The position numbers and the translations under genes are program-made. A model generated the notes under the pieces. That model ran no database searches and was not told where the DNA came from. It saw nothing but the letters and a program-made list of their open reading frames with translations. Positions 4,316-53,251 of a stretch of DNA of 64,000 bases are shown in pieces. Position 1 is the first letter of the stretch; each line of letters opens with the position of its first letter. Source of the DNA: Robiginitalea sp. SC105 (lineage in GTDB: Bacteria; Bacteroidota; Bacteroidia; Flavobacteriales; Flavobacteriaceae). The stretch spans positions 1,240,001-1,304,000 of the forward strand of contig NZ_JACLZF010000002.1 in assembly GCF_014243345.1 (NCBI RefSeq). Reading direction: 5' to 3'.

Positions 4316-4630
4316 AATAGCTTCTTTTTATCTTTTAAACATCGGTTACTTTAAAATAGGAAGATCCACCAAGATATAAAAACAACCTCCGGAAAAGAAC
4401 CCTGTACACTGTTTGGTATCTCCTCAGGGTGGATAAGGCACAATATAGGGGAATCCGAATCCGGAAGGATGCCCTCCTAATACCCCAGTTGTGCAAACCT
4501 TTTGTGACTCTTTGTGAGTTTTTCTTATATGTTTAACAAATATATGCAAAGTTTAAACATTTCTTATGATACTGGTGGGTATCGTATAGGTATCTTTAAT
4601 CATTATTATAAATCAAAAAAGAAATTGTAA
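4316..4630. other. Divergent intergenic region, osmC / fasciclin
   Basis: 315 bp with no convincing ORF, AT-richer than its neighbours. It must hold promoters for both flanking genes. On the + strand TATCTTTA (4591-4598) differs at one position from the TAnnTTTG -7 box and would give a leader of roughly 25 nt for the fasciclin gene. A short direct repeat, TTTGTGA, occurs twice near 4500-4520, and GGTATC occurs twice near 4577-4593. No hairpin terminator was seen. Confidence 0.4.
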
Positions 4631-7846: not shown

Positions 7847-8395
7847 ATGGATCACCTGATACCCGATTTCCTGGTGGTGCCTTTCCAAAAAGCACTGTCC
7901 CACTACCCGGAGCTGCATCAACTCGAAATCCGCCTGAAAATAATGCATCGCCCGGGTACCTCCACCATGTCGGCAAGGCCTACCCTCGCAACCTTACTGC
8001 TTGGGCCGCAGTCCCGTACCTATCTGATACGGGTGAGCCCGGCCGTACGGCTTGGCAATAAGCTGGAAGAACTGCCTGCCCTGCCGGAAGATGTTCTTAT
8101 CGGCTGGTTCGGGCATGAGCTCGGGCATATAAAGGACTATACCCATTGCAGCGGGATAGATATGGCGGGCTTTGGCCTGAAGTATTTACTTTCGCCCTCT
8201 TTCCGGCGGGCTGCAGAATTCCGCGCCGACTATTTTGCGGTGGAGAACGGGCTGCAGGAATATATACTCAGAACCAAGCACTATATCTTGCATGAGGCCG
8301 ATATTCCCCCCGCCTACAAAGCGCGCATCCGAAAGTACTACTGCTCCCCCGAGGAGATCGAGGCCCTGGTTCAGGAATTGGCCGGGGAGGCCTGA
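7847..8395 (+). CDS. HELGH-motif metallopeptidase-like protein
   Basis: A 182-residue protein with no signal peptide or membrane span. HELGH at residues 90-94 is a zincin HExxH motif. About 30 residues on, AAEFRADYFAVE supplies an Glu/Asp third-ligand candidate (E124, D128), the arrangement of M48-like gluzincins. It is much shorter than HtpX or Ste24 and lacks their membrane segments, so it may be a minimal cytosolic zincin or a regulatory derivative. Its last 25 bp overlap the end of the convergent GH3 gene. Confidence 0.7.
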   Translation: MDHLIPDFLVVPFQKALSHYPELHQLEIRLKIMHRPGTSTMSARPTLATLLLGPQSRTYLIRVSPAVRLGNKLEELPALPEDVLIGWFGHELGHIKDYTHCSGIDMAGFGLKYLLSPSFRRAAEFRADYFAVENGLQEYILRTKHYILHEADIPPAYKARIRKYYCSPEEIEALVQELAGEA

Positions 8396-9918
8396 TTTTC
8401 CCCGAGTCGGTTCGCAAAATCTTCCCACTCGGCAAACTTTTCGGGATTCATGACGCGCTCCACCTTCACCTGCCCCCCCTTTTTCTTATTTGCCTCGCTC
8501 CATGCATAGAAAACCTCCGGGGCCACTACCCTGACCCGAACCCCTTTTAACGCCTTGGACCGTGCAACCCGGTAATTCTTATTGGCTTCCTTTAGGTGCT
8601 GGTCGAGGGCGTTTGCCAATTTACCGGTATCCTGGCCATCGCGGCTCCCCAGGTACCAGCAATGGTGGAAACCGTTTTCGCGGCGCACAGCGGCCAGGGT
8701 GTATTCGGGGATGGCCATGCCAAATGTTTCTTCAACATGCTGTACGGCCCGGTCCAGCTTTTGTACGGATAGTTGGGATCCCACCGTATTGAGAAAAAAT
8801 TTGGTCCTGCCGGTTATCTCAATTTCCGCCCTGCCGGTGTCCGTAAAGGCAATCGTGTCCCCGATCAGGTACCTCCAGGCGCCGGCAACGGTACTGATGA
8901 TCAGTGCATAATCGGTACCGGCTTCTACCTCCTCAAGCCCCAGGGCTGGTGCATCCTGGCGGATACTGCCGTCCTCTTCCAGGTTCTCCGGCTTAAAGGG
9001 TACGAATTCAAAATAGATGCCATTATCGGTCAGCAATTGCATGGCATCGGTTTCAGGCCTGGTCTGCAGGGCAAGGAAGCCTTCCGAGGCCAGGTAGGTG
9101 TCGATTACCGCAATATCCTTTCCGAGCAGGGACCGGAAGCTTTTCTCATAAGGTCCGAACGCAACGCCCCCCGAGGTATATACCTGCAGGTTGGGCCAGA
9201 TTTCATGGATGTGCTTCAGGCCGTGGTGATTAATCACCTCCCTGAGCATCAACTCAATCCAGGACGGGATGCCGCTCAGGGCGCCAATATCCCAGTCTGC
9301 GGCTTTCTCCGCAATTCGTGCCACCCGGTCGTCCCAGTCATCAATTTGCGCAATTTCCTCCCCCGGTTTGTAATAGCTCCTGAACCAGAAGGGAATGTTG
9401 CCCGCACTGATACCCGAGATCTCCCCTTCCCGGAAGCCATCTTTTTCCTCCAGATCAGTTGAACTTCCGAGCATCAGGATTTCCGTTTCAAAAAACGAAG
9501 GGGGAAGGTCAAAATTCTTGAGCGAAAGCACTTGCCGGACCCCGGCCCGCCGGATGCTGCGGATCATTTCTTCGGTTACGGGGATCCGCTTGCTGCTGCC
9601 GGTGGTGCCGGACGAAAGGGCGTAATAATCAGGGTTCCCGGGCCAGCTAACCCCGGACTCCCCTTCCAGTTGTCGCTGCCACCAGCTTTCGTGCATCCGC
9701 TTGTAGTCATGGAACGGAACTTTCACGGCGAAAGCCTTCTGGATATTTGAACTTCGCAGGATTTCCGCGAATCCGTAATGTTTTCCGAATGCACTTTCAC
9801 GGGCTGTTTCCAGCAGGTATCGCAACTGGTCCTCCTGCTGGGCCAAATGGTCCTGTTCGCGGTTCAGGATCGCCCCTGCCTCGATGGCTTTTTTGATTAT
9901 GGATCCAAGAAGTGGCAT
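8371..9918 (-). CDS. GH3 auxin-responsive promoter family acyl-adenylating enzyme
   Basis: A 515-residue protein of the GH3 family (acyl-AMP ligases related to plant JAR1/GH3). The typical ALSSGTTGSSKRIPVT phosphate-binding loop is at residues ~100-115, TSGGVAFGPYEKSF is central, and YRYLIGDTI-like AWRYLIGDTIAFTD carries the adenylate-binding Asp. Plant members conjugate amino acids to acyl acids; the bacterial substrate is unknown. Full length. The 3' end overlaps the HELGH gene tail to tail by 25 bp. Confidence 0.9.
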   Translation of the reverse strand: MPLLGSIIKKAIEAGAILNREQDHLAQQEDQLRYLLETARESAFGKHYGFAEILRSSNIQKAFAVKVPFHDYKRMHESWWQRQLEGESGVSWPGNPDYYALSSGTTGSSKRIPVTEEMIRSIRRAGVRQVLSLKNFDLPPSFFETEILMLGSSTDLEEKDGFREGEISGISAGNIPFWFRSYYKPGEEIAQIDDWDDRVARIAEKAADWDIGALSGIPSWIELMLREVINHHGLKHIHEIWPNLQVYTSGGVAFGPYEKSFRSLLGKDIAVIDTYLASEGFLALQTRPETDAMQLLTDNGIYFEFVPFKPENLEEDGSIRQDAPALGLEEVEAGTDYALIISTVAGAWRYLIGDTIAFTDTGRAEIEITGRTKFFLNTVGSQLSVQKLDRAVQHVEETFGMAIPEYTLAAVRRENGFHHCWYLGSRDGQDTGKLANALDQHLKEANKNYRVARSKALKGVRVRVVAPEVFYAWSEANKKKGGQVKVERVMNPEKFAEWEDFANRLGENQASPANS

Positions 9919-10213
9919 CCTCCCAAAATTACAACAGTCCTGAGTGTACCATGCGCCATGGTAACGGAAAAGCGCCCTTTATCCGTTTTTTGGGAAAGGA
10001 ATGTGCACTCCTGTCAACTAGCCCGGAGGCTGAATTATTTTTTTGACAGGCCATCATTCTTTTAAAATACTGTAGGACAACGACTTGATACGATAACAAA
10101 TAACAGGATATGTTAAAAATTGTTTAAAACAGTACCTTTTATAGCATAGTACTGTAACAATCCTTTTTCTCTGTCGTCTTATAGGTAAACAACATCAATT
10201 AAAAACAAAGATC
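9919..10213. promoter_or_regulatory. Divergent region, GH3 gene / small-ORF group
   Basis: 295 bp, AT-rich toward the right-hand side, with no ORF. It must drive the GH3 gene leftward and the small-ORF group rightward. TACCTTTT (10133-10140) is one base off a TAnnTTTG -7 box for the + strand and falls inside an inverted repeat described separately. Confidence 0.35.
10129..10155. repeat. Inverted repeat ACAGTAC-N13-GTACTGT
   Basis: Perfect 7-bp arms at 10129-10135 and 10149-10155 around a 13-bp AT-rich spacer, about 60 bp before the first small ORF. It overlaps a candidate -7 box, so it could be a repressor operator or, if transcribed, a 5'-UTR hairpin. Arms and spacing are seen directly; the role is inferred. 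Confidence 0.55.
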
Positions 10214-10345
10214 ATGACAGCCAGGGTTAAACGAATCGAATTTATTTACGAACTGCTGGTCATGGGTTTCGGCTGGAATCATCATCAGGAACCCGCGACA
10301 AATGCCTCTTCAAATCAAAGGAACCACAAAAAAGTAGGGTTATGA
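10214..10345 (+). CDS. Small ORF A, 43 aa, first of small-ORF group
   Basis: ATG-started frame of 43 codons. It begins MTARVKRIEFIYELLVMGF and ends in a polar, Asn/His-rich tail with HKKVGL. It has no signal peptide and no recognised family. Its TGA stop overlaps the ATG of the next small ORF (ATGA), the pattern of translational coupling, which supports it being read. The arrangement suggests it leads a short polycistronic message ending at the terminator near 10700. Confidence 0.45.
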   Translation: MTARVKRIEFIYELLVMGFGWNHHQEPATNASSNQRNHKKVGL

Positions 10346-10446
10346 ATACCACAACGCCAACTGAATCGAGGAGTTTCAGAAACCTCTCGAATTCTAAATT
10401 GAGCCACCGGGTGCGTTGGTCCGAATTCCGTAAGAGCGCCTATTAA
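10342..10446 (+). CDS. Small ORF B, 34 aa, RVRW family
   Basis: 34-codon basic peptide, coupled to small ORF A by an ATGA overlap. Residues 7-34 align without gaps to small ORF C with 13 of 28 identities: ESRxF, SN, SxRVRW, a later Arg and a final Tyr. Many of the matched codons differ only synonymously (for example the Arg-Val-Arg codons), which argues for selection on the peptide. The preceding bases GGTTATGAA are shared with ORF C. Function unknown; a basic RNA/DNA-binding or secreted peptide are both open. Confidence 0.6.
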   Translation: MNTTTPTESRSFRNLSNSKLSHRVRWSEFRKSAY

Positions 10447-10466
10447 AGGCCGGAATCACAGCCAGG

Positions 10467-10508
10467 CATCAGTCATCAAGGAACGAGCATCAATCATCAA
10501 AGAACGAG
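10467..10508 (+). repeat. Two tandem 21-bp direct repeats between small ORFs
   Basis: Two adjoining 21-bp units (10467-10487 and 10488-10508), both of the form CATCA.TCATCAA.GAACGAG, differ at two positions. A decayed third copy follows to about 10535. They lie in the 91-bp gap between small ORFs B and C and look like a duplicated leader segment. Confidence 0.8.
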
Positions 10509-10537
10509 TCAATCAACAATCATCAAATCGAACGGTT

Positions 10538-10651
10538 ATGAAACTAGTTATCAATCCATCCCCATCCGAATCCAGGAGGTTTGCCATCTTCTCCAACTTC
10601 AGGGACAGCAAACGCGTAAGGTGGGAAGGACAACGCAATTATACGTACTAA
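10538..10651 (+). CDS. Small ORF C, 37 aa, RVRW family
   Basis: 37-codon basic peptide, paralogous to small ORF B. It shares ESRxF, SN, SxRVRW and the C-terminal Tyr in a gapless 28-residue alignment, with synonymous differences at conserved codons. It starts with the same GGTTATGAA context. It ends 31 bp before a strong terminator. No database family is recognised. The duplication with conserved protein sequence is the best evidence that both are real small genes. Confidence 0.6.
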   Translation: MKLVINPSPSESRRFAIFSNFRDSKRVRWEGQRNYTY

Positions 10652-10681: not shown

Positions 10682-10710
10682 AAAAAGGCCCGTAATCAAC
10701 GGGCCTTTTT
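10682..10710. terminator. Bidirectional terminator
   Basis: AAAAAGGCCCG-7 bases-CGGGCCTTTTT: an 11-bp stem including the flanking A and T runs, usable on both strands. It ends the + strand small-ORF group and the minus-strand transcript coming from the molybdenum/amidohydrolase region. Confidence 0.88.
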
Positions 10711-10731
10711 TATGATTAACAAGTTATTCTC

Positions 10732-10957
10732 TTAAAGTTCATAGGTTTCCATCATCCCGTTCGGATAGGTCAGGATTGCCTCGTTGTCACAACTGCCATC
10801 CCCGAAATCAACGGTCATGGAAAGGCCGTTTTTCCCAACGATCATTACCCCGCTTACCAGGTAGGTGCACTCAAAATTGCCCGTGAGCGGGCTGGTTACG
10901 TTAACTGTGTAGGTATTGCCGTCTCCTTCATCAGGGGCAGCTGCCTGATATTCAGGG
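10732..10957 (-). pseudogene. 3' remnant of a secreted-protein gene
   Basis: An open frame of about 75 codons with no own start. It merges upstream into the end of the amidohydrolase gene in another frame, and the only in-frame start is a GTG inside that gene. The peptide (ECTYLVSGVMIV ... DFGDGSCDNEAILTYPNG) has two conserved cysteines. It resembles the C-terminal module I recall from Flavobacteriia lipoproteins, with a CxY-x-VxG / DYGDGxCDN pattern. The rest of that gene is missing, so I call it a truncated remnant left by deletion. A coupled small protein is the alternative. Confidence 0.5.
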
Positions 10958-12040
10958 GTTGGGGAAGAGCGAACGGTCCACACCAGGTAGCAGTTTCAGG
11001 GCATTTTCGTAATACAGTTTGCGCAGTACCGGATCCGGCAGGTCCAACCCGTACATGGCCCAGAATGCGTGGTACTTTTTGTAATAAGGGAAATACTCAT
11101 CGGCAGTTTCCAGAACCCTGAAATAGGTAGGGTATTCGCCAGGTTGCCAGGCATCCTTTCCAAATACCACCCGGTCCTGGTAGGCGATAAAAAACTCCCT
11201 GGCGCGCCGGGGCTGCCGGCCCAGTTCGGCAATCACTGCCCCAATACCCACATACATGTTCGGTATTTCATCCAGCAGGGTGGAAAGCGTCCCCAGGTCG
11301 TTGGCATACCATCCCATATGTGCATTGATAAACCGGGTTTCCGGGTGTTTTTTGAACATGCGGTGCTGCTCGTCAATGATTTGCTGCCAGGGTGCGGGGT
11401 CCGTATCGCTCCGTTTGCGACGCGGCCTTAATTTAAGCTCCAGCCAGCGCTCGTTCAGGGAATCCATTGGATCCCAGAATGAACGGGGGTCGGCGGAATG
11501 GATGAGTACGGGAATCCCCAGTTCGCCACATTTTTCCCAGATGGGATCCAGGCGGGGATCATCGACAGCGATCCGATTGCCATTGATATCGTTATTCCTC
11601 AGGCCCAGGCTCTTGTAGATCTTCAGGCCTGAAGCCCCGTTGGCTACATCGGCCTCCAGCTGGGCTGCTGCCCTTTCCCCCCATCCCGGTGTGCCCACGC
11701 TGTCAAAATCTACATTGGCAAAAACCACAAACCGGTTCGGGTAATGCTTTTTCACATTTTCCATAGCCCCTTTCAGGTGATCCCCCGAACCCCCGCTGAG
11801 ATTAACCATAACGGCCATGTTCAGCGTATCCATGGCCGCTACCAACTCCGACAGGTCCTGGGTGGGCATCCGGAAATGGTGGCTGTGCACATCGATAAAG
11901 GGAAATTTGGCCCTGGTCACGGGATTTCCCGGCACCACCAGGGTGGATTCCGGGTTGTACTCCTCGAAGCCCATTTCCTGGGAAGCCAAAAAGCTACTGA
12001 ACAGGGCTGCGCTGAGGGTTAAAAGTACTTTTCTGGTCAT
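10952..12040 (-). CDS. Secreted amidohydrolase (Amidohydro_2)
   Basis: 362 residues with a cleavable signal peptide (~20 residues ending LAS-Q). A TIM-barrel amidohydrolase follows: IDVHSHHF (H52, H54) is the first metal motif, LIHSADP and INAHMGWY supply the later His ligands, and VVFGKDAWQ the catalytic-Asp region. Related enzymes hydrolyse or decarboxylate cyclic acids; the substrate is unknown. It follows mocA by 26 bp on the same strand and may be the last gene of the molybdenum operon. Confidence 0.88.
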   Translation of the reverse strand: MTRKVLLTLSAALFSSFLASQEMGFEEYNPESTLVVPGNPVTRAKFPFIDVHSHHFRMPTQDLSELVAAMDTLNMAVMVNLSGGSGDHLKGAMENVKKHYPNRFVVFANVDFDSVGTPGWGERAAAQLEADVANGASGLKIYKSLGLRNNDINGNRIAVDDPRLDPIWEKCGELGIPVLIHSADPRSFWDPMDSLNERWLELKLRPRRKRSDTDPAPWQQIIDEQHRMFKKHPETRFINAHMGWYANDLGTLSTLLDEIPNMYVGIGAVIAELGRQPRRAREFFIAYQDRVVFGKDAWQPGEYPTYFRVLETADEYFPYYKKYHAFWAMYGLDLPDPVLRKLYYENALKLLPGVDRSLFPNP

Positions 12041-12066: not shown

Positions 12067-12678
12067 CTACTTATCGAGGCCGGCCCTTTTCCTGAGAGCC
12101 TGGTAGGCCTCTGGCGTGTCCATATCCTGCCCCGCCGGGCCGGGATCTAGCAGTATAGCCGTGCCAGCCTGCTGCCTGATCAGATTTTTTGCGCCACTCT
12201 TGAAGGGCAGTGCCTGCAGAGAATCAAAAAACTGCTGCCCGAACAGGGCGGGGACGCCGGGACCCTGTGGATAGGCAGATGCCACCAGGCCACCTGCTGC
12301 CCCGGAAAATTCCCTGAGCATCCGGGTCAGGTAATCGCTACCAATCATCGGTTGGTCTGCCAACAGGACCAGCAGGCCCGATGGCCTGACCTGTGAAATC
12401 CCTAACGCAAAGTCAACTCCCCGGCGGATACTGGACCCCATCCCCTGTTCCCAGTCCGGATTATGGCATATCTGTGCGTCTCCCAGGTCCGTTTCCCCGG
12501 TGATTTCCCGGTGGTGAGCGCCGGTAACCACCACAGAGGAAACCAGGCCCGCTGCCCGTACCGCCCCCAGTACAGATTGAAGCACATTGCCTCCTGCCCA
12601 GGGCAGGAGGGATTTGGGCTGCCCCATTCGGCTGGATTCCCCTGCGGCCAGTATGATGGCGCTTACAGCCTGTCCCAT
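12067..12678 (-). CDS. mocA: Molybdenum cofactor cytidylyltransferase-like
   Basis: A 203-residue NTP-transferase that probably adds CMP to Mo-molybdopterin to form MCD. It begins with the nucleotide-binding motif AIILAAGESSRMGQPKSLLPW and has LLVLLADQPMI carrying the metal Asp. The pairing with xdhC, whose stop it overlaps by one base, is the usual context for MCD enzymes of the xanthine-dehydrogenase family. That makes CTP more likely than GTP as donor (context inference). Confidence 0.85.
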   Translation of the reverse strand: MGQAVSAIILAAGESSRMGQPKSLLPWAGGNVLQSVLGAVRAAGLVSSVVVTGAHHREITGETDLGDAQICHNPDWEQGMGSSIRRGVDFALGISQVRPSGLLVLLADQPMIGSDYLTRMLREFSGAAGGLVASAYPQGPGVPALFGQQFFDSLQALPFKSGAKNLIRQQAGTAILLDPGPAGQDMDTPEAYQALRKRAGLDK

Positions 12679-13685
12679 CAGCTGTGGATCCTTCCTTCCT
12701 TATCCCGCAGGGGGATAGCGTCCTTCTGCCTGGCAACCGCCAGGATTTCGGCCAGGATGGACAGGGCGATTTCCTGGGGTGTTTCGGCCCCGATATCGAT
12801 CCCCGCAGGGCCATGGATCTGTCCGAAAAACTCGTCGTCCGGCTCGGGCATCCGATCGAGGAGGTCGCTGAGCAGGCGCTCTCTCCGGGAAGCGGGCCCG
12901 AGTATCCCGAGGTACCCAGGACGCGCGCCCGACAAGCGGAGTAAGTATTTCAAATCCTTGGTATAGCTGTGGGTCATCAGGACCACTGCCGTTTGCCGGT
13001 CCATTTCAGGAGCTTCCCACTGTTCGGGGATTACCGAGCGAAAATCGGAAGCCCCCGGAAAATAGTCCCTGTTTTTGGATTCGTCCGCTGCAACAGTTAC
13101 ACAGACCTCCCATCCCGCCTGGGCTGCAAGGCCTGAAAGCTGCACGGTGTCATGCTCCCCCCCAAACAATTCCAGGCGGAGCCTCGGGGGAAGCACCTGT
13201 CTGAATTCAAGGTTTCCGTGAGCCTTTTTGCCTTTTCCGGCCGGATGGTTGCCGCCCGGGGTGATTAGTTGGGTCATCAGGCCCTCCCGGGCACCGTCCT
13301 CCCTCCGGTAGGTGGTGGTCAATTCCAGGGGTAGCCTGTTGGCGATACGCTCCTGGAAGGCATCCAGGAAAGAGTCTCCCGGCTCAAAAGGCTCCAGCAG
13401 GATATACAGGGTGCCTTCGCACCCCAGGCGGAACCTGCCGTCGTAGGTCATCATCCGCGGGATACCGGTTTCAAAAACTTCCCGGGCCTGTCGGTGAACT
13501 TCTTTTTCCACGCATCCCCCGCTTACCGCCCCGAAGGCGGCCCCGTTTTCCAGCAGCAGCATCCGGACCCCCGGCCTGCGGTAGGAGGAGCCATCGAGGT
13601 CCACAACGGTCGCCAGAACGCTCTGTTGCCCGATTTCCCGGGCTTTCCGATAGGCCTCTACGATATGTATCACTTCATGCGTCAC
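12678..13685 (-). CDS. xdhC: XdhC/CoxI-family molybdenum cofactor insertion chaperone
   Basis: 335 residues. The N-terminal XdhC/CoxI domain has GSSYRRPGVRMLL and GAVSGGCVEKEV; the C-terminal half is the Rossmann-like XdhC_C domain (ILGPASRRERLLSDL, HGPAGIDIGAETPQEIALSILAEI). The family binds sulfurated Mo cofactor and loads it into xanthine dehydrogenase/CO dehydrogenase-type enzymes. It overlaps moeA by 4 bp and mocA by 1 bp. No such molybdoenzyme is present in the window. Confidence 0.92.
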   Translation of the reverse strand: MTHEVIHIVEAYRKAREIGQQSVLATVVDLDGSSYRRPGVRMLLLENGAAFGAVSGGCVEKEVHRQAREVFETGIPRMMTYDGRFRLGCEGTLYILLEPFEPGDSFLDAFQERIANRLPLELTTTYRREDGAREGLMTQLITPGGNHPAGKGKKAHGNLEFRQVLPPRLRLELFGGEHDTVQLSGLAAQAGWEVCVTVAADESKNRDYFPGASDFRSVIPEQWEAPEMDRQTAVVLMTHSYTKDLKYLLRLSGARPGYLGILGPASRRERLLSDLLDRMPEPDDEFFGQIHGPAGIDIGAETPQEIALSILAEILAVARQKDAIPLRDKEGRIHS

Positions 13686-14884
13686 GTCAACTCAGTTTTA
13701 AAGGGCAGGAGCGGGACAAGGGTTCCCTCTTCGTAGGGCTCAGCGGCGGGTTCCAGCCGGATAAACCCTTCTGCCCGGGCAAGGCTCAGGAAATCCCCCG
13801 AACTGTTCATGGGGATTTCCTCTGCCCACAGGGTGCCTGCCTCTGTTTTCAATTTAACCAGCCTGAACTGGGTCAGTTCCGAGGTATTGACAGTGGCAGC
13901 AGCCAACCGCGCCTGATGCGACCCCGGGACAACCCCCATTCCGGATAACAGCCAGTCCCTAAAATACAAATGATAGTTTAAAAAAGTCGAAACCGGGTTA
14001 CCCGGAAATGAAAACACCACACAATCCTTTTTCTCACTGGCTCCAAACCAAAAGGGTTTCCCGGGCCGCTGGGCAACCCGGTGAAATAGTTTCCGGACGC
14101 CAAGTTGTTCCAGGGCCTCGGGTATGAGGTCGAATTTGCCTTTTGAGACCCCTCCGCTGAGCATCAGCACATCTGCTTCCGACAGCGCTTTCTCAAGGCT
14201 ATTGCGTATCGAATCGGCATTGTCTGCCAGGTGGAGCAGCCGCGGTTGGATTTTAAATTCCTCCAGGGCTGCCCGGAGGGACCAGGTATTAGATTTTCGG
14301 ATCTGGTGGGGTTCCGGCCGCTGGTCCACCTCCACCAACTCGTCCCCCGTTGAGACCAATATGATAACCGGGAGGCGGAATACCTGTGGGCGATGTATGC
14401 CCACTGAGGCGAGTACCGCAATTTCTGCAGGGCCAATGCGGCAGCCTTCCCGGAGCAGCAATTCCCCTTCAGGTGCATCGCTGCCGGCAGGGTGGATGCT
14501 CTGACCGGGTTTGGGTTCGGACAGGATCCGAAAGCCCTTTTCGGATTTTTCCAAATCCTCGTAGCGTATAACCGTATCGGCCCCTTCGGGTACGACGGCC
14601 CCTGTGGCGATCTCGATACAACCATTGCGGCCCTCAAGGCGCTGCCCGGACTCCCCTGCCCTGGCCATTCCCAAAACCGAGAATTCCCTGATCCCATCCC
14701 GGAAGTCTCCATGACGGATGGCAATGCCATCCATGGTAGCCCTGTCGTAGGGCGGCAGCGGGCGGTCTGCGTAGACGGGTTGCGCCAGATACCGGCCACA
14801 GGCGTCGGCCAGGTCGATGGATTCTTTCCCTGGATTGGTTTTCCGGCCGGTGACAATCTGTAGGGCTTCCTTAGACGAAATCAT
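13682..14884 (-). CDS. moeA: Molybdopterin molybdenumtransferase
   Basis: 400 residues, full length. MoeA inserts molybdate into adenylylated molybdopterin. Diagnostic motifs are PPYDRATMDGIA near residue 45, VLMLSGGVSKGKFD (the usual SGGVSVGxxD) and FSFPGNPVS. It sits between tauE (2-bp gap) and xdhC (4-bp overlap) in the molybdenum-cofactor operon. Confidence 0.94.
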   Translation of the reverse strand: MISSKEALQIVTGRKTNPGKESIDLADACGRYLAQPVYADRPLPPYDRATMDGIAIRHGDFRDGIREFSVLGMARAGESGQRLEGRNGCIEIATGAVVPEGADTVIRYEDLEKSEKGFRILSEPKPGQSIHPAGSDAPEGELLLREGCRIGPAEIAVLASVGIHRPQVFRLPVIILVSTGDELVEVDQRPEPHQIRKSNTWSLRAALEEFKIQPRLLHLADNADSIRNSLEKALSEADVLMLSGGVSKGKFDLIPEALEQLGVRKLFHRVAQRPGKPFWFGASEKKDCVVFSFPGNPVSTFLNYHLYFRDWLLSGMGVVPGSHQARLAAATVNTSELTQFRLVKLKTEAGTLWAEEIPMNSSGDFLSLARAEGFIRLEPAAEPYEEGTLVPLLPFKTELT

Positions 14885-14886
14885 GG

Positions 14887-15660
14887 TTAGAAGTTTAGGC
14901 CAAGTCCATTGATAAACAGGACGCGGACGCCCACTACTAATACGAGGACTGCGGTGACAAGTCGGATTCCCTGGGCCGTCAGGCGGTTCAGGGTGAGCCG
15001 GATCCCGATCTGCCCGCCTGCAAGGACGGCCAGTATCAAGGCCAGGGCAGGAAGCCAGGTTAAACTGAAGGTGCCCGCTGTGAGCAGGCCGGCAATACCC
15101 GAAATGGAATTGACCAGGATGAAAAAGCTTGCCAGGGCGGCAATCTTAATAGGCAGGTCCCACCGGAGGTGGTTCAGGACTGGCGCCAGGAAAATACCCC
15201 CGCCGATCCCTACCAGCCCGGAGAGCATGCCGATTGCCCCTCCCAGCACATAGGTCAATATCCGGGCGTACCGGTGTTTCCGGGGTTCGCTGAATTGCTG
15301 CCGCAGGGATTGATAGCCCAGGGCCAGGGAGGATACGATCAACGCGCTTCCCAGGATCCCGAAGAACAGGCTTTCTTCCAGGCGGAAACTGGCACCAATA
15401 TAGGCCATGGGGATGCTTGCCAGGGTAAAGGGGATGCAGAGCTTCCAGTCCAAATAGCCCTTGCGGTAAAAGAGCCAGACGCTTCCGGAAACCACCACCA
15501 GGTTGCACAGGAGCGCCAGGGTCCGGATTTCATAGAATTCGGTAAAGCTCAGGCTGAGGATGGCCAGGTAGGAGGACCCGCCGCCGAAACCGGCCGAGGC
15601 GTAAAGCAGGGCGATCACAAAAAAGGCGAGTGCCAGCCAGATCAGCTCGGGATTTGTCAC
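14887..15660 (-). CDS. TauE/SafE-family anion exporter
   Basis: 257-residue inner-membrane protein with about eight hydrophobic spans and the repeated TSUP signature, GFGGGSSYLAIL in the first half and GLVGIGGGIFLAPVL in the second. TSUP proteins move sulfite, sulfonates or related anions. Its place between moeB and moeA (4-bp overlap and 2-bp gap) suggests a link to sulfur or oxyanion handling in cofactor synthesis, possibly molybdate or sulfite. This is inference from position only. Confidence 0.88.
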   Translation of the reverse strand: MTNPELIWLALAFFVIALLYASAGFGGGSSYLAILSLSFTEFYEIRTLALLCNLVVVSGSVWLFYRKGYLDWKLCIPFTLASIPMAYIGASFRLEESLFFGILGSALIVSSLALGYQSLRQQFSEPRKHRYARILTYVLGGAIGMLSGLVGIGGGIFLAPVLNHLRWDLPIKIAALASFFILVNSISGIAGLLTAGTFSLTWLPALALILAVLAGGQIGIRLTLNRLTAQGIRLVTAVLVLVVGVRVLFINGLGLNF

Positions 15661-16727
15661 AGGATTTCGACTTTAAACTGTCGCATCCCGCCCGATACCC
15701 AGAAAAAGGCCCTGCCGGGGAAACGGCTTTGGAGCTGGACGCAGGCTTTCCTGCTCCTTGGGCCGGTCTCGCATATCAGGTAAACTGGCAGGTTGTCTTC
15801 TGATTCCAAAGATGCCGATCCCAGTTGCCCCAGGGGGATGTTGCGGGCACCCGGTAAATGGCCTCCCCCGAATTCGTCAGGTTCCCGGACGTCGATAAGT
15901 TCATGCGGCACTTGTTCCCTGCGGAGCCGGTTGTAATCGTTTGCGTTCAGGGCATCCGCCTCGTCCCTGCAGGACAGCTGGTATGTTGGGGCCAGTTGAT
16001 CGGGAACCTGTCGCTCCGGGTCCCGTTTGAAGGCCATTTGGTGTATGAGCTGTTGGCGGGCATCGTACATGATCAGCCTGCCCGAACAGACTCCCTCCGT
16101 GCCGCTGAGCACCTTGGTGGCTTCCAATGCCTGCATGTTCCCGATAAGCCCTGGAAGCACCCCCAGGGTCCCCAGGGTGTCACAATCCGGGATTTCGCCC
16201 GAAGGCGGGGGTTCCGGGAACAGGCAGCGGTAGGTGGGTCCGCCTTTGTAATTAAAAACGCTCACCTGCCCTTCATACCCATGGAGCGCACCGTAGACCC
16301 ATGGTTTATCCAGCATCAGGCATGCATCGTCTATCAGGTAACGGGTCGGCAGGTTATCCGTGGCATCCACCACCAGATCGTACTGCTTAATAAGTTCCAG
16401 GGCATTGTGCGTATTGAGGTAGGTGTCATGGGTTTCCAGCCGGGTTTCAGGGTTCGCCTTTTGCAACCAGGCGGCTAATTGGAGCACCTTGCTTTTACCT
16501 ACCTGTGACGGGCCATAGGCGGGCTGCCTGTGCAGGTTGCTGGTCTCCACGATGTCCCCGTCTACCAGTCCGAGCCTGCCAACCCCCATGGCATTGAGGT
16601 ACTGGGCTGCGGGCACACCCAGGCCGCCGGCACCGACGATCAGCACAGCGCTTCCGTACAGCGCTTCCTGCCCCCCGGGGCCGAATCCTTCCAGCCGGAT
16701 TTGTCTGTCGTAGCGACCCGCTGTCAT
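15657..16727 (-). CDS. moeB: MoeB/ThiF-type adenylyltransferase fused to rhodanese
   Basis: 356 residues. Residues ~1-245 form an E1-like domain that adenylates the Gly-Gly tail of MoaD (GAGGLGVPAAQYLNAMGVGRL, DGDIVETSNLHRQ, DATDNLPTRY). Residues ~265-356 form a rhodanese domain with active-site Cys319 in ICETGPRS, so the protein can also supply sulfur for the MoaD thiocarboxylate, as in MOCS3/MoeZ. The structural-zinc cysteines of E. coli MoeB are absent: TYRC has one of the first pair and the second CxxC is missing. Overlaps mobA and tauE by 4 bp each. Confidence 0.92.
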   Translation of the reverse strand: MTAGRYDRQIRLEGFGPGGQEALYGSAVLIVGAGGLGVPAAQYLNAMGVGRLGLVDGDIVETSNLHRQPAYGPSQVGKSKVLQLAAWLQKANPETRLETHDTYLNTHNALELIKQYDLVVDATDNLPTRYLIDDACLMLDKPWVYGALHGYEGQVSVFNYKGGPTYRCLFPEPPPSGEIPDCDTLGTLGVLPGLIGNMQALEATKVLSGTEGVCSGRLIMYDARQQLIHQMAFKRDPERQVPDQLAPTYQLSCRDEADALNANDYNRLRREQVPHELIDVREPDEFGGGHLPGARNIPLGQLGSASLESEDNLPVYLICETGPRSRKACVQLQSRFPGRAFFWVSGGMRQFKVEIL

Positions 16728-17329
16728 AATTGATTTAGTTTTTCCAGAATGGCTTCCCGTTCCTGAGGGTCATTTGCATTGGCAAGCACCGTATCATCGG
16801 TTGCCGTTACCAGTCGGGTATCAGACCGGATCAGGAATTTTCGTGGACAGCTGGATTCGGCGTTTTCCATATAGGAAATTGCGTGACGTAGGCCCCTGGG
16901 CTCCCAAATCGCGGCCAGGGGTTCCGGAAGTCCGGATTTCCCTGTTGCAAAAGCCGTTGCCATACGGGAAGGATCCCGCTCATCAATCAGGAGCCTCAGC
17001 GAGTCGCGATCCATGAGCGGCAGGTCACAGGCCAGCACCAGCCATGCAGCCTCCGGGTACAGCGCGTGGGCAGACAGGATACCGTTGAGGGGGCCCCGGA
17101 ATCGGTCCTGGTCGGTCACGGTTTGGAAAGCTTCCGGGATATCCGCCTCCTGGTCTGAGCGGAGGCTTAGGAACGTCCTTTCGCAAAGGGTTTCAAGCAA
17201 GGCGTAGGCAAACTCCCGCTGGGGTTTCCCGTGGTATTCGATTTCACCTTTGTCCTGTCCCATCCGGTTGCTTTTGCCCCCTGCCAGGACCAGGCCGTAA
17301 ATCGGTGGAATCGCTTTTCCAATTGCCAT
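16724..17329 (-). CDS. mobA: Molybdenum cofactor guanylyltransferase
   Basis: 201-residue NTP-transferase with GLVLAGGKSNRMGQDKGEIEYHG, the classic LAGGxSxRMGxDK of MobA, and LVLACDLPLMD as the metal site. It makes the guanine dinucleotide form of the cofactor. It is the second nucleotidyltransferase of the operon besides mocA, so both dinucleotide branches are covered. It overlaps moeB by 4 bp. Confidence 0.88.
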   Translation of the reverse strand: MAIGKAIPPIYGLVLAGGKSNRMGQDKGEIEYHGKPQREFAYALLETLCERTFLSLRSDQEADIPEAFQTVTDQDRFRGPLNGILSAHALYPEAAWLVLACDLPLMDRDSLRLLIDERDPSRMATAFATGKSGLPEPLAAIWEPRGLRHAISYMENAESSCPRKFLIRSDTRLVTATDDTVLANANDPQEREAILEKLNQL

Positions 17330-17349
17330 GATAGTACGTGTTTTTCCCT

Positions 17350-18333
17350 TTAACCGCCGATGGAGGTCATTGAACTCCCAGTTACCGGCCCAAAGCGTTC
17401 CTGCGCTTCAAAGCCATCTTTTGAGCGCTGCCCGAGGATCTCCTCGAGGATCCCGCGCATTTCAAGGGTGGAGGCGCCCTGCCTCAGGGGTTCGCGGATA
17501 TTGGCCACTGGTTTCCCGTACAGGCAGGTGATCAGGTCCCCGGTGGCGGTGATCCGCAACCTGTTGCAGCTTCCGCAAAACGTGCGGCTGAATGCGGGGA
17601 TAATGCCAAAGGACCCGGCATGCCCGGGAATCCGATAGTTTACCGAAGTCGCGGTCATCGGTGCAGGTACCTTTTCGAAATCCGGGTAGCGCTCCCGGAT
17701 ATGTCCGAGTATTTTTTTATGGTTCCATTCCAGTCCCTTGAAATCCCGGCTGCCCCCATTGAAGGGCATTTCCTCGAGAAACCGGACGCGAACCGGATAT
17801 TTTTCCTGAAACTCCATCATCGGGTAGATTTCCGATATGTTCTGTTCGCCGAGGACCACGCAATTGATCCGGACCTCAATCCCAGATGCTATCAGCTTCA
17901 TCAGGTTGCCGTAGACCTTATCGAATTCGTCCCTGCGGGTTATTTTAGCAAAGGTCTCGGGCTGGATGGCGTCCAGGCTGATGTTCACGCACTTTATACC
18001 CATCCGCTGCATCTCCCCGATATGCGGGCCGATCAGTGTGGCATTGGAGGTCACCGAGATCTCCCTGAGGGAGTCGAGCTCGGACAAGTGGCCGAAAAGT
18101 TTCATAACTCCTTTACGGACAAAGGGTTCTCCCCCGGTAATCCGTATTTTATCCACGCCGAGTTCTGCAAGCACCGTGCAAAGCCGCTGCATTTCAGGGA
18201 TGCTCAACAGATCAGAGCGCCGCGCAAACGCAATGCCTGATTCTGGCATGCAGTAATTGCAACGGAGGTTGCACCGGTCAGTAACCGCGAGCCGCACGTA
18301 ATTGATTACTCTGTTGTGATTGTCGATCAGCAT
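17350..18333 (-). CDS. moaA: GTP 3',8-cyclase
   Basis: 327-residue radical SAM enzyme for the first step of molybdopterin synthesis. The N-terminal 4Fe-4S cluster ligands are C21, C25 and C28 (DRCNLRCNYCMP) and the SAM motif is ITGGEP. The C-terminal cluster ligands are C253, C256 and C270 (FCGSCNRLR, ITCLYG). The protein ends in Gly-Gly, which MoaA needs for activity. The partner moaC is not in the window. Confidence 0.96.
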   Translation of the reverse strand: MLIDNHNRVINYVRLAVTDRCNLRCNYCMPESGIAFARRSDLLSIPEMQRLCTVLAELGVDKIRITGGEPFVRKGVMKLFGHLSELDSLREISVTSNATLIGPHIGEMQRMGIKCVNISLDAIQPETFAKITRRDEFDKVYGNLMKLIASGIEVRINCVVLGEQNISEIYPMMEFQEKYPVRVRFLEEMPFNGGSRDFKGLEWNHKKILGHIRERYPDFEKVPAPMTATSVNYRIPGHAGSFGIIPAFSRTFCGSCNRLRITATGDLITCLYGKPVANIREPLRQGASTLEMRGILEEILGQRSKDGFEAQERFGPVTGSSMTSIGG

Positions 18334-46501: not shown

Positions 46502-47122
46502 TTAACGCCGTTCGCGGTGGCGACGGGCAAGAATCGCCTCGACATCCTGCAACCGGTACCCCTTGGCCTGCAGCAGGATCATCCAGTGGAACAACAGGTC
46601 GGAACTCTCCTCGAGGAACAGGCCGTCATCCGAACCCATGGCCTCGATTACGGTTTCCACGGCCTCCTCCCCTACTTTTTGTGCCACCTTGGCCACCCCT
46701 CGTTTCAGCAGGCCCGCCACATAGCTCGAATCATCTGAAGTGGGCGACGCGGCTTGTTGTTTTCTGCGGGCGATGATCGCTTCGAGTTCGGGTAGGAAGG
46801 ATTCAGGAGCGGCATTCGTTTCACCCCAACAAGTATCCGATCCGGTATGGCATACTGGTCCGGTAGGCCGTGCCCTCACCAGGAGGGCGTCCCCGTCGCA
46901 ATCAATCCGGACATCCACGAATTCCAGGAAGTTGCCGCTGGATTCGCCCTTGGTCCAGAGACGCTGCTTACTCCGGCTGTAAAAGGTAACCCGGCCACTG
47001 GAACGGGTTTCCTTAAGTGCCGCGTCATTCATATATCCCAGCATGAGCACCTTATGGGTGGTTGCATCCTGGATGATGGCGGGTACGAGCCCGCCTGCTT
47101 TGTCAAAATCGATAGAATCCAT
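46502..47122 (-). CDS. hisIE: Phosphoribosyl-AMP cyclohydrolase / phosphoribosyl-ATP pyrophosphatase
   Basis: 206-residue fusion. HisI: residues ~1-110, with MLGYMNDAALKET, TFYSRSKQRLWTKGESSG, DCDGDALLVRA and CHTGSDTCW carrying the Zn/Mg ligands. HisE: residues ~112-206, with YVAGLLKRGVAKVAQKVGEEAVET and SSDLLFHWMILLQA. It carries out steps 2 and 3 of histidine synthesis. Last gene of the his operon; no terminator is evident after it. Confidence 0.96.
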   Translation of the reverse strand: MDSIDFDKAGGLVPAIIQDATTHKVLMLGYMNDAALKETRSSGRVTFYSRSKQRLWTKGESSGNFLEFVDVRIDCDGDALLVRARPTGPVCHTGSDTCWGETNAAPESFLPELEAIIARRKQQAASPTSDDSSYVAGLLKRGVAKVAQKVGEEAVETVIEAMGSDDGLFLEESSDLLFHWMILLQAKGYRLQDVEAILARRHRERR

Positions 47123-47132
47123 GAGTATTCGT

Positions 47133-47888
47133 TTAAATTCGCACAGGTATCCCCTGTTGCCTCAGGTAGGCTTTCAATTCGGGGATGGGGATCTCCCCGA
47201 AGTGGAAAACGCTGGCCGCCAGGGCAGCGTCGGCCTTCCCCTTGGTAAATGCATCGGCAAAATGCCCGGGCGACCCGGCCCCACCCGATGCGATGACCGG
47301 AACTTCCACCATTTCCGTCAGGGTCGCGAGCGCCTCATTGGCAAATCCGCCTTTGGTGCCATCGTGGTCCATGCTGGTAAACAGGATTTCCCCTGCCCCC
47401 CGGCTGACGACTTCCCGGGCCCAGCTGAACAATTCCAGGTCTGTGGGCACCTTGCCGCCCACCAGGTGGATTTTCCAGTGGCCCCCGACCCATTTGGCGT
47501 CAAGAGCTGCAACCACGCACTGGGACCCGAATTTGGCGGCCAGGGAATCGATGAGTTCCGGGGAACGCACAGCGGAAGAATTGACCGAAACCTTGTCGGC
47601 GCCGTTGTGGAGCAGGATATCCACGTCTTCCACGGAAGAGATGCCCCCACCCACCGTAAAAGGGATATCGATCCGCTCTGCCACCCGGCGGACCAGCTTT
47701 GCCAGGGTCTTGCGTTTTTCCTCTGTAGCCGAGATATCCAGGAAGACGAGCTCGTCCGCCCCTTCCCGGGCATACGCCTCGGCCAACTCCACAGGGTCCC
47801 CGGCATCCCTCAGGTCTACAAAGTTAATGCCCTTGACCGTGCGGCCGTCCTTTATATCGAGGCAGGGTATGATCCGTTTTGCTAGCAT
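47133..47888 (-). CDS. hisF: Imidazole glycerol phosphate synthase, cyclase subunit
   Basis: 251-residue (beta-alpha)8 barrel. [19 protein letters not shown] holds catalytic Asp11. Phosphate loops are [10 protein letters not shown] and [10 protein letters not shown], and [14 protein letters not shown] holds the second catalytic Asp. It works with HisH, encoded further upstream in the operon. It lies 2 bp after the DinB-like gene and 10 bp before hisIE. Confidence 0.97.
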
Positions 47889-47890
47889 GG

Positions 47891-48394
47891 TCAGGTATTG
47901 TTTACAGTCAGGTCCACCCCGTCATAGAAGCCGAGGTCTTCGTTATTTCGGGCTTTCACCAGGTAGGCCACCTGTCCGGTGTGGTAGCTCAGGTGTTCGA
48001 CGGCATGGATGACGAGCCCCATCCCGCTGAAGGTAAACCCCTGTACCCTGCGTTTTTTGAGCAGGGACCCGGAATCGGCCCTCCGTATCACCTCCCGTGC
48101 CTCCTGCACCGTGGCTGAAAACTGTTTCCAGACGATATCCCTGGACAACTCCCCCCCGGCCCCGAACTCCGCATCCCGATCCCGGTTGTCCGGGCTATCC
48201 CCCAGGCCGCTGATCACATATTGGCGGATGTTCCCCGAAAGGTGGAGCAACAGGTTTCCCATGGAGTTCAGGGAAGGGTTTTCCCGTTCCCAAAACCCCG
48301 AATCCGGGATCCGGCCCATGCAAATCCTCAGCATCCGCACCGATTCATCGATCCGGAACAGGCAATTTTCCTTGAAGTCCTCTGTCCATTCCAC
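47891..48394 (-). CDS. DinB-superfamily protein inside the his operon
   Basis: 167-residue four-helix protein of the DinB/DUF1572 type. Possible metal ligands are His in [11 protein letters not shown] and the pair in [20 protein letters not shown]. It lies between hisA (1-bp gap) and hisF (2-bp gap), so it must be expressed with the pathway. DinB-like proteins include thiol-dependent S-transferases and hydrolases. A housekeeping or repair role linked to histidine synthesis is possible but not shown. Confidence 0.82.
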
Positions 48395-48395
48395 G

Positions 48396-49133
48396 TTAGC
48401 CTGCTTTGATGTAATCCTTCAATTCCTCCAGGCCAATGGCGCCTTCGTAGAGGGCCTTGCCGATGATGGCGCCTTCGCACCCCACCTGCCCCAGTTCCCG
48501 TAGGTCCTCCAAACTTCGAATTCCCCCGCTTGCAATCAACCGGAAACCGTTTCCCGTTTTGCGGGTTTCCCGCAACAGGTCCCCATAGAGTTCCGTGGAG
48601 GGGCCCTGCAACATCCCATCCCTGGAGATATCCGTGCAGATGACATATTCCACCCCTTTGGTAAGGTAGTCCTGTACAAAAGGGAGCAATTCCTGGTCGC
48701 TTCCCTGCTGCCATCCGGATACCGCAATTTTCCCGTCCCGGGCATCAGCGCCCAGGATGATGCGGTCCGGGCCGTATTTGGCAACCCAGCCCAGGAACCG
48801 GTCGGGTTCCTTGACCGCTATGCTGCCGCCGGTCACCTGCCGGGCGCCGCAATCAAAGGCAATCCGCAGGTCATCATCCGATTTCAGCCCGCCCCCGAAG
48901 TCAATTTGCAGGTTCGTACCCTGAGCGATGCGTTCCAGTACCCTGTAATTCACAATATGCGCCGACCGGGCCCCATCCAGGTCAACCAGGTGCAGATAGC
49001 GTATCCCGTGGTCCTCGAAAAGCTTTGCGGCCTCCAGGGGATCCTCGTGGTAAACCTTGCGGGTGGCATAATCCCCCTTGGTCAGGCGGACACACTTCCC
49101 GTCGATGATATCAATGGCTGGAATAATCCTCAT
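48396..49133 (-). CDS. hisA: Phosphoribosylformimino-AICAR ribotide isomerase
   Basis: 245-residue barrel enzyme. [20 protein letters not shown] holds the catalytic Asp8; [13 protein letters not shown] and [16 protein letters not shown] are the phosphate loops; [19 protein letters not shown] holds the second Asp. Step 4 of histidine synthesis. Overlaps hisH by 4 bp. Confidence 0.97.
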
Positions 49134-49717
49134 GTTGGCATTTCTATAAAATTACGCAGCATCCGCGCGCCATCCGCCCCGCTTTTCTCCGGGTGGAACT
49201 GGACACCGAGAAAATTATCCCGGCCCAGGGCCGCACTGTATTCGAACCCGTAGTCGCTGCGCGCAATGGAATCCGGTGATACAGGTGCATAAAAACTGTG
49301 CACCAGGTAGATGTAGGTGGCTTCCGGGATCCCTTCGAACAAGGGCCCCCGAAGGTGGTGGATGCTGTTCCACCCGATCTGGGGCACCTTGAGGCCCCTG
49401 GGAAACCGTTTCACGTCCACCTCAAAAATACCCAGCCCGCGGGTATCCCCTTCCTCGGAGTACCGGCACATCAGCTGCATGCCAAGGCAAATCCCCAGCA
49501 CGGGTTGACGGAGCTCGGGAACAACTTTGTCCAGGCCGCTCTGCACGAGTTTTGCCATGGCGCTGCCGGCCTCGCCCACCCCGGGGAAAATGACCCGGTC
49601 GGCACTGCGGATCCGCTCGGCATCCGAAGTGAGCTCAGCATGGTATCCCAGGCGCTCCAGGGCAAAGCGGATGCTCTGTATGTTCCCGGCCCCATAATCG
49701 ATAATTGCAATGTCCAT
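49130..49717 (-). CDS. hisH: Imidazole glycerol phosphate synthase, glutaminase subunit
   Basis: 195-residue class I amidotransferase. The nucleophile Cys is in [11 protein letters not shown], the oxyanion region in [13 protein letters not shown], and the catalytic His and Glu in [11 protein letters not shown]. It feeds ammonia to HisF. Overlaps hisA by 4 bp and follows hisB by 12 bp. Confidence 0.97.
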
Positions 49718-49729
49718 TTGGTTCCCTTG

Positions 49730-50866
49730 TTAAAGCATTCCCTTGGTCGTAGGCAGGATCATCCGCTCCGGGTCCCGTTTTACGGCCATCTTCACGGCTT
49801 TCGCGAAAGCTTTGAAGATCGCTTCGATTTTATGGTGTTCATTGGTGCCTTCTGCCTTGATGTTGAGGTTGGCGCGGGCACTGTCCGAGAAGGACTTAAA
49901 AAAATGCAGAAACATTTCCGTTGGCATATCCCCGATTTTCTCCCGGTGGAACTCCGCGTCCCAGACCAGCCAGTTCCGGCCGCCAAAGTCCAGGGCGACC
50001 TGGGCAAGGCAATCGTCCATCGGGAGGCAAAAACCATAGCGCTCAATGCCCAGTTTGTTGCCCAGGGCCTCCGATACGGCTGCCCCCAGGGCAATGGCGG
50101 TATCTTCAATGGTGTGGTGCTCATCTACTTCGAGGTCCCCTTCCACGCGTATTAACAGGTCCATTTGTCCGTGACGGGCAAGCTGGTCCAGCATGTGGTC
50201 AAAAAATTTAAGTCCGGTATGGATATCGCTTTTTCCGGTTCCATTGAGCCGCAGCCGTATCTCAATATCCGTTTCGGCCGTCTTCCGGGTGAGGGTTGCC
50301 TCGCGGGCCCCCAGCTTCAGGAATTCATAGATCCCCTCCCAGTGGGTCCCCTCCCAGGCTATAACCCTGGAAAGGCTTTCTGCCGAATCGCTTATTTCCG
50401 AGGCACCCAACTCAGGGTGTGCGTTCAGGAAAATCCCGCGGGCCCCAAGGTTTTCAGCGAGTTTCATATCGGTGAGCCGGTCGCCGATCACATAGCTGCC
50501 CTCCAAATCCCATTCCGGGGCCAGATAGTCCCGGAGCATGCCGGTTCCCGGTTTCCGGGTAGCCGCCCCCTCTTCCGGAAAAGTCCGGTCGATATGGATG
50601 GACCGGAAAATAATCCCCTCATTCTTCAGCACATCAACCATGAATTCCTGTACGGGCCAGAAGGTGTCCTCCGGATAGGATGCCGTCCCCAGTCCATCCT
50701 GGTTGGTAACCATTACCAGTTCATAGTCGGTTTCCCGGGCAATGGCCCCGAGGTACCGGAAGACGCCGGGCAGGAATTCGAGTTTCTCAAAGGCATCGAT
50801 CTGTTCGTCCGCCGGTTCGCGGATCAGCGTCCCATCCCGGTCGATAAATAGTAGTTTCTTTTTCAT
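49730..50866 (-). CDS. hisB: Histidinol-phosphatase / imidazoleglycerol-phosphate dehydratase
   Basis: 378-residue bifunctional enzyme. The HAD phosphatase half (about 1-165) has LFIDRDGT (Asp9, Asp11), MVTNQDGLG and [10 protein letters not shown]. The dehydratase half (about 185-378) has [13 protein letters not shown] and [12 protein letters not shown] (metal His). The zinc loop of the E. coli phosphatase half is altered: [19 protein letters not shown] keeps one His but has no Cys. Overlaps hisC by 4 bp. Confidence 0.96.
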
Positions 50867-53248: not shown

Positions 53249-53251
53249 TTC

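Follow-up and report, generated by a model that had tools for sequence, protein, structure and literature searches.

Genes and regulatory elements of the locus

Three small frames, of 43, 34 and 37 codons, lie on the forward strand (+) of the window (the whole stretch of 64,000 nucleotides from Robiginitalea sp. SC105 that was analysed), in a gap without long genes that extends from 9918 to about 10732. The first of them, ORF1 (10214..10345; 43 aa), is an optional micro-ORF with a GFGW motif, found in the frame list and by pattern match. It is followed by ORF2 (10342..10446; 34 aa), the upstream copy of a micro-protein with the motif RVRW, and by ORF3 (10538..10651; 37 aa), the last copy; the family profile, which includes both sequences, recovers them at E 6e-14 and E 1.6e-20, respectively. 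ORF1 and ORF2 overlap by ATGA, and the start context GGTTATGAA is common to ORF2 and ORF3. Upstream of the frames, and on the same strand, an operator model marks a candidate PadR-like operator (10111..10152), composed of a TGTTAA-rich stretch and an inverted repeat, GTAC (10132-10135)-N13-GTAC (10149-10152). This is immediately followed by a promoter of the ECF-sigma type (10153..10181), identified by pattern match, with the -35 element TGTAACA at 10153-10159, a 15-nt spacer and the -10 element CGTCT at 10175-10179.

Much of this had been noticed in a preliminary description made from the letters of the window, and direct reading of the sequence bears out the position and size of the three frames, the ATGA overlap, the common start context, the extent of the gap and the presence of a terminator at the end of the group. 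The composite promoter, its likeness to the ECF and PadR operons discussed below and the wider cassette had escaped it. The terminator, recognised by a terminator scan together with the sequence, is the palindrome AAAAAGGCCCG..CGGGCCTTTTTT (10682..10711), which has T tracts on both strands and is common to the convergent downstream gene. The scan scores it on the minus strand only, with one terminator found against 0.7 expected, and on the plus strand the palindrome also ends in six T.

Regarding the flanking genes, positions 8371-9918 (-), divergent from the array, encode a GH3-family protein with all three GH3 domains (Pfam), whereas in G005, G008 and G009 the place upstream of the array is taken by other genes. 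On the downstream side, 10732-10983 (-) holds an 83-aa frame with a GTG start and no Pfam match, which overlaps the downstream amidohydrolase gene by 32 nt and is possibly a truncated version of a small exported protein. Elsewhere in the window, 12067-18333 and 46502-54109 (-) contain ordinary look-alikes of molybdenum-cofactor and histidine biosynthesis clusters, recognised by eye from the translations.

The RVRW micro-proteins and their distribution

The kinship of ORF2 and ORF3 had been proposed on the basis of an ungapped block of 28 residues with 13 identities, of which the identities stand and the span is corrected to 27 residues. Using ORF3 as query in its own genome, ORF2 is recovered at E = 0.012, and the only other match (C1:1781950, E = 1.9) was dropped, being antisense to a long frame. 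Such a pair alone is only suggestive; it is the orthologues that settle the question. The nine genus-sample genomes with a completeness of 90% or more, among them that of the window, all contain the array, with two copies in each and three in G009, and a copy of ORF2 is found at the same place in the genus genomes. A tenth genus genome, 74% complete, yields only a weak DNA match (E 0.1). The products, near 37 aa in length, follow the genus consensus MKxxxNxTPTESRRFxYFSNFKxSKRVRWSESRNYVY, with M1, S19, R26, V27, W29 and R33 invariant across 19 genus sequences.

Among nine ORF3 orthologues, pS amounts to 0.76 and pN to 0.20 (Nei-Gojobori counts), and a shift of the reading frame by one or two bases changes the values to 0.21-0.25 and 0.33-0.35, respectively. 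This large excess of pS over pN, reversed in the shifted frames, argues for a translated protein under purifying selection. Within the window, the comparison of ORF2 with ORF3 gives pS 0.92 and pN 0.36, so that the dN/dS check put forward in the preliminary description yields, between copies and orthologues, ratios that are not near 1. The orthologues, the codon test and the promoter rule out an origin of the array by chance or artefact, and, as far as sequence can tell, the micro-ORFs are almost certainly conserved coding genes arranged in tandem. That the transcript itself would be the product, a regulatory RNA with incidental short frames, is exceedingly improbable. This reading has in its favour that the locus is a short stand-alone transcription unit with its own terminator and that low-complexity leaders of the CATCAATCATCAA type separate the copies, but pS far exceeds pN, with opposite or near-equal values in the shifted frames, the length is exactly 37 aa in 106 of the 136 distinct RVRW gene sequences collected, and Rfam has no match within the window.

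ORF1 is a member of a separate, optional micro-ORF family. Since a GFGW/GWGW micro-ORF occupies the same place in only four of the nine genus genomes and its codon signal within the genus is weak (pS 0.59, pN 0.46, over 15 codons), ORF1 is less certain than ORF2 and ORF3. Among the 72 arrays that bear the promoter described below, 22 have an ORF with a GFGW/GSGW core before the first RVRW gene (by pattern, with an alignment of 17), and in Maribacter-type arrays the ORF1-type frame looks conserved, with the form HPHxxRPRIYFxxGxGWxTD.

A profile of the RVRW family was built from the 19 sequences and finds a match, at E <= 0.01, in 59 of the 397 family genomes, which belong to 38 of 237 genera; at least four of these 59 (G101, G246, G326 and G351) rest on E values of 0.004-0.01 and could be accidental. 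The order sample has matches in 7 of 296 genomes, of which two are weak (E 8e-5 and 4e-4) and one of these two has an internal stop. The phylum sample has matches in 4 of 395 genomes, and all four belong to the family. The homologues for which a search of Bacteroidetes genomes had been proposed were found in these Flavobacteriaceae genomes, and they are almost wholly confined to this one family instead of extending over the phylum at large. Robiginitalea, Eudoraea, Muriicola, Maribacter, Pricia, Saonia, Ulvibacterium, Croceitalea and Flagellimonas are among the genera of the 66 named loci. Arrays of one, two, three and four copies number 26, 27, 35 and 9, respectively (97 distinct arrays, grouped by their first gene, such that a locus cut in two may count twice).

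The eight RVRW gene neighbourhoods examined are all different. Lone copies also adjoin other genes, including an Hsp20 gene, as in L093 (G034), and an FMN reductase gene (Pfam on protein parts), and the copy in G117 (L066) appears by eye to lie inside an ABC-transporter operon. In L091 (G089), RVRW genes at 11855-11989 (+) and 4482-4616 (-) form separate arrays, and both carry the same in-frame TGQAG insertion before SPTES, as though a short DNA repeat had been inserted. Tandem short genes that resemble precursors, with a variable N-terminus and a fixed C-terminus, could encode secreted or modified peptides (RiPP-like precursors or signals, the tandem copies serving as multiple precursors). 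This is considered highly improbable: no export signal is visible by eye and, among the eight neighbourhoods, neither a modification enzyme nor a transporter was seen to recur, the apparent ABC operon of L066 concerning one copy.

Searches of family libraries agree with the earlier view that no known family fits. Pfam matches none of 86 RVRW members at E <= 0.1, NCBIfam neither of two RVRW nor of two GFGW members, and PHROGs and PADLOC none of eight each. For six proteins representing the GFGW form and the 28-aa and 44-aa forms presented below, NCBIfam has no match at E <= 1 and Pfam a single sub-threshold one (E 0.21). Against all PDB chains, ribosome chains included, RVRW profile A2 obtains four weak, unrelated matches (best E 0.36), and the 28-aa form none at E <= 1. 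Phage and plasmid collections, searched by tblastn with one 37-aa and one 28-aa member, gave no match, and in the open-licence PMC literature no paper was recognised as dealing with these proteins, the five peptide strings looked for being absent from the full text. Several candidate classes were rejected in this way. The absence of any Pfam match, and hence of a PspA_IM30 domain, discards an output protein of the PspA/IM30 type, and a protein of 37 aa is too short for the PspA_IM30 coiled-coil domain. A type I toxin peptide, hydrophobic and membrane-spanning, is at odds with a net charge of 2 to 9 and few aliphatic residues; a sequence relation to a known ribosome-bound protein was rejected on the lack of a significant PDB-chain match, and a phage- or plasmid-borne gene on the lack of homologues in those collections for the two members tried. 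The description of the family as undescribed, basic and duplicating in tandem therefore holds, with no library match, a mean net charge of +6.2 and arrays of one to four copies.

The charge ranges from 2 to 9 over 202 sequences, with few acidic or aliphatic residues, and K, R, W and R are invariant or nearly so in the family. A structure model is weak (pLDDT 65.7, pTM 0.26) and places a helix at residues 25-33 with low confidence. A division of the copies into position classes, with upstream copies ending in Arg and last copies in His, was abandoned as a trend only (in 63 arrays, last copies end 18 times in His, 17 in Arg and 12 in Tyr, and upstream copies 61 times in Arg and 23 in His). The composition bears on two alternative functions. 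The main rival to the reading preferred below is that the micro-proteins are induced by stress, reach a high dose and bind rRNA or mRNA, slowing or protecting translation much as SRA or RMF of E. coli do. The basic composition, the K, R, W and R residues and the several copies, which suggest a high dose, speak for it; the lack of a significant match among PDB chains, those of ribosomes included, and of a Pfam family speaks against it, as do the promoter parts, which point to the envelope, and it is judged unlikely. In the second alternative, the basic-aromatic C-terminus would bind anionic membrane lipids and seal stressed membranes, in line with its richness in Trp, Arg and Tyr and with the Psp-like promoter likeness. 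The hydrophobic moment of the helix segments lies below that of shuffled sequence, which disfavours a simple amphipathic membrane helix, and by eye there is no hydrophobic stretch of membrane-spanning length, making this option improbable.

A composite promoter resembling those of ECF and PadR operons

The -35/-10 combination TGTAACA-N(13-19)-CGTCTTA has a single occurrence in the window, and likewise a single one in the genome. Across the 97 arrays, GTAACA-N15-CGTC is found upstream of the first gene in 72, with a spacer of 15 in 71 of these; as the pattern demands GTAACA and CGTC, no variation can appear in those columns. In the 72 promoter-bearing arrays, about 66 bits of conservation are found in the 62 nt that precede the -35 element, and the consensus of the whole element is about TGTTAAAaatTgtaTAAaAtaGTACctTTTtataCATAGTACTGTAACA-N15-CGTCTatTagnTgTAA. 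The same -35/-10 pair precedes an ECF sigma gene in 24/24 family genomes, with 10-12 of 12 bases and always a spacing of 15, a score attained by shuffled upstream sequence in no more than 1.5% of the 200 trials run for each genome. The corresponding operon encodes the sigma factor (Sigma70_r2 and Sigma70_r4), a short protein and DUF4252 proteins (Pfam). The short protein, which has no Pfam match and one hydrophobic stretch, is presumed to be the anti-sigma. Other genes downstream of the pair include MacB-like ABC permeases and DUF2807. A short version of the -35/-10 pattern gives 63 matches in ten genomes against 18 for the backward control; in the window's genome alone it is not clearly enriched (6 versus 4).

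The arrays thus carry, by sequence, the -35/-10 elements and the spacing of the autoregulated ECF operon, as members of its regulon would, with the exception of 25 of the 97 in which the pattern finds no promoter (one of them with only 16 nt upstream). Within these 25, CGTCT lies nearby in five and a TAnnTTTG box within 150 nt in five, compared with one TAnnTTTG box among the 72 promoter-bearing arrays, which makes a different control probable for some copies. In Flavobacterium psychrophilum, an ECF-type motif, SM6, has been mapped (PMC9723704), and it resembles the array promoter in its CGT-containing -10 box. According to the excerpts of that paper, an ECF sigma/anti-sigma pair is itself a target of SM6, as in the autoregulated ECF operon here, and the targets they list comprise type IX secretion genes, those for Band-7 proteins and a small number of further ones, with no mention of micro-protein arrays.

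The second component, the GTAC-N13-GTAC repeat, is present in 68 of the 72 promoter-bearing arrays and missing from four. The next three arm bases are complementary (TAT..ATA or CTT..AAG) in only 27 of the 68 repeats, the commonest arm form, CTT..ATA (37 arrays), being non-complementary. A very similar palindrome lies upstream of an operon for DUF4870, PadR, PspC with Toastrack, and DUF2807; PadR is found, and the palindrome upstream of it, in 24/24 genomes. Its PspC contains LiaI-LiaF-TM_PspC and Toast-rack domains, and HAAS appears as a weak match below the cut-off. Scored by an operator pattern that was defined after inspecting the sites, the 24 PadR sites reach 13-16 of 16 and the shuffled control (11 of the 24 loci) at most 12-14, which leaves the site of G136, with a score of 13, weak on score alone. 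A different operator pattern, which allowed three mismatches, was useless for counts, remaining near the control in most of 20 genomes; it served only to point to the PadR operon.

The relationship between both kinds of sites is also seen with a matrix derived from the 24 PadR sites alone, which ranks the array palindrome first in 79/79 RVRW loci (66 distinct promoters) and best in 38/38 loci of the wider arrays. These tests covered only loci with GTAC before the -35 element (79 of 106), with some genomes entering twice, and this placement requirement favours the result. A 50-nt model of both site kinds, R1, finds in the window's genome the array at 10108-10155 (E 7.9e-13) and the PadR operon (E 3e-9); no further site reaches E <= 0.1 among the candidates scored, of which there were at most 150. 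R1, like the promoter model R2 used below, was partly trained on sites of the genomes searched, the window's own included; as the array and PadR sites belong to its training set, the information lies in the absence of other matches, and with at most 150 candidates scored per genome such absences are soft. Two other operator matches were observed: in L342 (G136), a genome without an RVRW match, a PadR-type operator (E 7e-7) precedes a 127-aa protein that has, by eye, a signal-like N-terminus and ankyrin-like repeats, and in L343 (G163) a weak match (E 1.5e-4) lies about 220 bases upstream of a frame that looks Hsp20-like by eye.

The PadR operon is of the kind known from the HAAS-PadR-PspC-Toastrack systems, described from gene neighbourhoods as an envelope-stress system of the PSP response (PMC11237479), given that the operon with the array-like operator encodes PadR, PspC/Toast-rack and DUF2807. 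In the excerpts of that description, unlike here, no micro-protein output appears. The arrays sit elsewhere in the genome and are tied to the PadR operon only by the similar operator, and they carry in this manner, by sequence, a candidate operator of the regulator, as would be expected within a PSP-type regulon. From the two components of the promoter, the cassette is probably controlled by an ECF sigma plus a PadR-like regulator. That the array and the PadR-PspC operon are the only two sites marked by the operator model in the window's genome, which resembles a closed loop, also leaves room for feedback peptides, which would modulate the circuit to which they belong by binding to the PadR-like regulator, to the anti-sigma or to PspC, and a short conserved motif would suit protein docking of this sort. 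G016, G022 and G030, however, have no RVRW or promoter-model match and keep the PadR operon with its operator, so the circuit may run without the peptides, and a feedback role is considered decidedly unlikely. Of the 24 genomes, the eight that gave no RVRW match also have both the PadR and the ECF operons.

The wider cassette and its possible role

The promoter is found more widely than the RVRW proteins. In G034 and G015, R1 led to copies of the promoter and then to shorter frames, MRTTIFKNSKRIRWSEHRNYAIKS (in three near-identical copies) and MRTLNNNQLSGTLNSTKSNRWNTKRRYR. R2, an 82-nt model of the promoter, matches 289 of 397 family genomes at E <= 0.01, where many of the matches near 1e-3 are probably chance. 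With a best E <= 1e-6, it matches 178 of the 397 (counted by hand from the match table), 49 with an RVRW match and 129 without; its absences are soft, as at most 11 candidates per genome were scored under strict filters. All 39 elements inspected, which come from 38 genomes (3 of them RVRW genomes) and were hand-picked, mostly from the top of the R2 ranking, are followed by tandem or single micro-ORFs. A strict motif, [ST]K-x3-W-x3-R-x-[YF] near the end or W-x-G..RYAH, is present in at least one frame in 31 of the 38 loci amenable to scripted analysis, against 0 of 38 on the opposite strand, and the remaining seven have looser versions, that of G274 (L387) being without Trp.

Within this wider set, the commonest form is a 28-aa protein, MRTLNxNQLxxTLxxTKSxxWNxKRRYR, which occurs in 31 of the 38 loci in one to three copies. 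It is often followed by a protein of 43-45 aa, some of which end in WKGTKRYAH. Intermediates exist in G322 and G065, where copies of the 28-aa type precede an RVRW-like copy, and G277 has forms of 35 and 23 aa, e.g. MKTQLNFSKTKRTLWSNYRRYSL. In codon counts from a set freed of one unrelated frame, 28-aa copies within one array give pS 0.37 and pN 0.08 (25 pairs; shifted frames 0.11/0.15 and 0.16/0.12), and first copies across 31 loci give 0.58 and 0.27 (shifted frames 0.27/0.38 and 0.33/0.33). An ExbD-like gene lies directly 3' of the array in 8 of the 38 loci (L390, L393, L394, L406, L409, L411, L412 and L413), identified by Pfam in one and in the others by a common peptide string. On the evidence here, the RVRW family would represent the form taken, in one clade, by a cassette that occurs across much of Flavobacteriaceae. 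Conservation is stronger in the promoter than in the proteins; the promoter would evolve more slowly, so that a promoter search finds the cassette where protein searches fail.

The preferred reading, held tentatively, is that the cassette consists of tandem micro-proteins made under envelope stress that dock to a membrane-stress partner. A disturbance of the envelope would free the ECF sigma from its anti-sigma, the PadR-like regulator would change state, and the cassette would fire under both, with the several gene copies providing a higher dose. In the least certain step, the micro-proteins would not leave the cytoplasm, and their action would depend on the common motif at the C-terminus, [ST]K-x3-W-x3-R-x-[YF], which spans about 13 residues and is predicted to form a short helix. 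As this motif is kept while the length drifts from 23 to 45 aa, it has the appearance of a docking peptide that recognises a single conserved partner, and its constancy favours docking over a general charge effect; even so, the docking component is put forward with more reserve than the reading as a whole. The likeness of the promoters makes the cytoplasmic side of the PspC/HAAS membrane complex the first guess for the partner, and the micro-proteins would then be small output proteins of a Psp-like response. The fullest version, a Psp-like system whose output is arrays of docking micro-proteins of 23-45 aa in place of PspA, with ECF and PadR/PspC inputs joined at a composite promoter, is a doubtful possibility.

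Small basic proteins induced by stress are known from E. coli, SRA and RMF being examples. The array micro-proteins are similarly short, basic and apparently linked to stress, but they differ in the lack of a Pfam match, in the tandem multi-copy layout and in the composite ECF/PadR-type promoter. The protein family and the cassette are regarded as new, and the ECF sigma and PadR regulator parts are of known kinds. The gene set behind a strong promoter match in 178 of the 397 family genomes has no model in the libraries searched, and annotation pipelines usually keep proteins near or above the sizes of these members. For the PadR-PspC-Toastrack signalling outlined in the excerpts of PMC11237479, the array promoter would constitute a concrete candidate target, which makes the circuit directly testable. 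More generally, a search that starts from the promoter offers a way to find micro-proteins that evolve fast.
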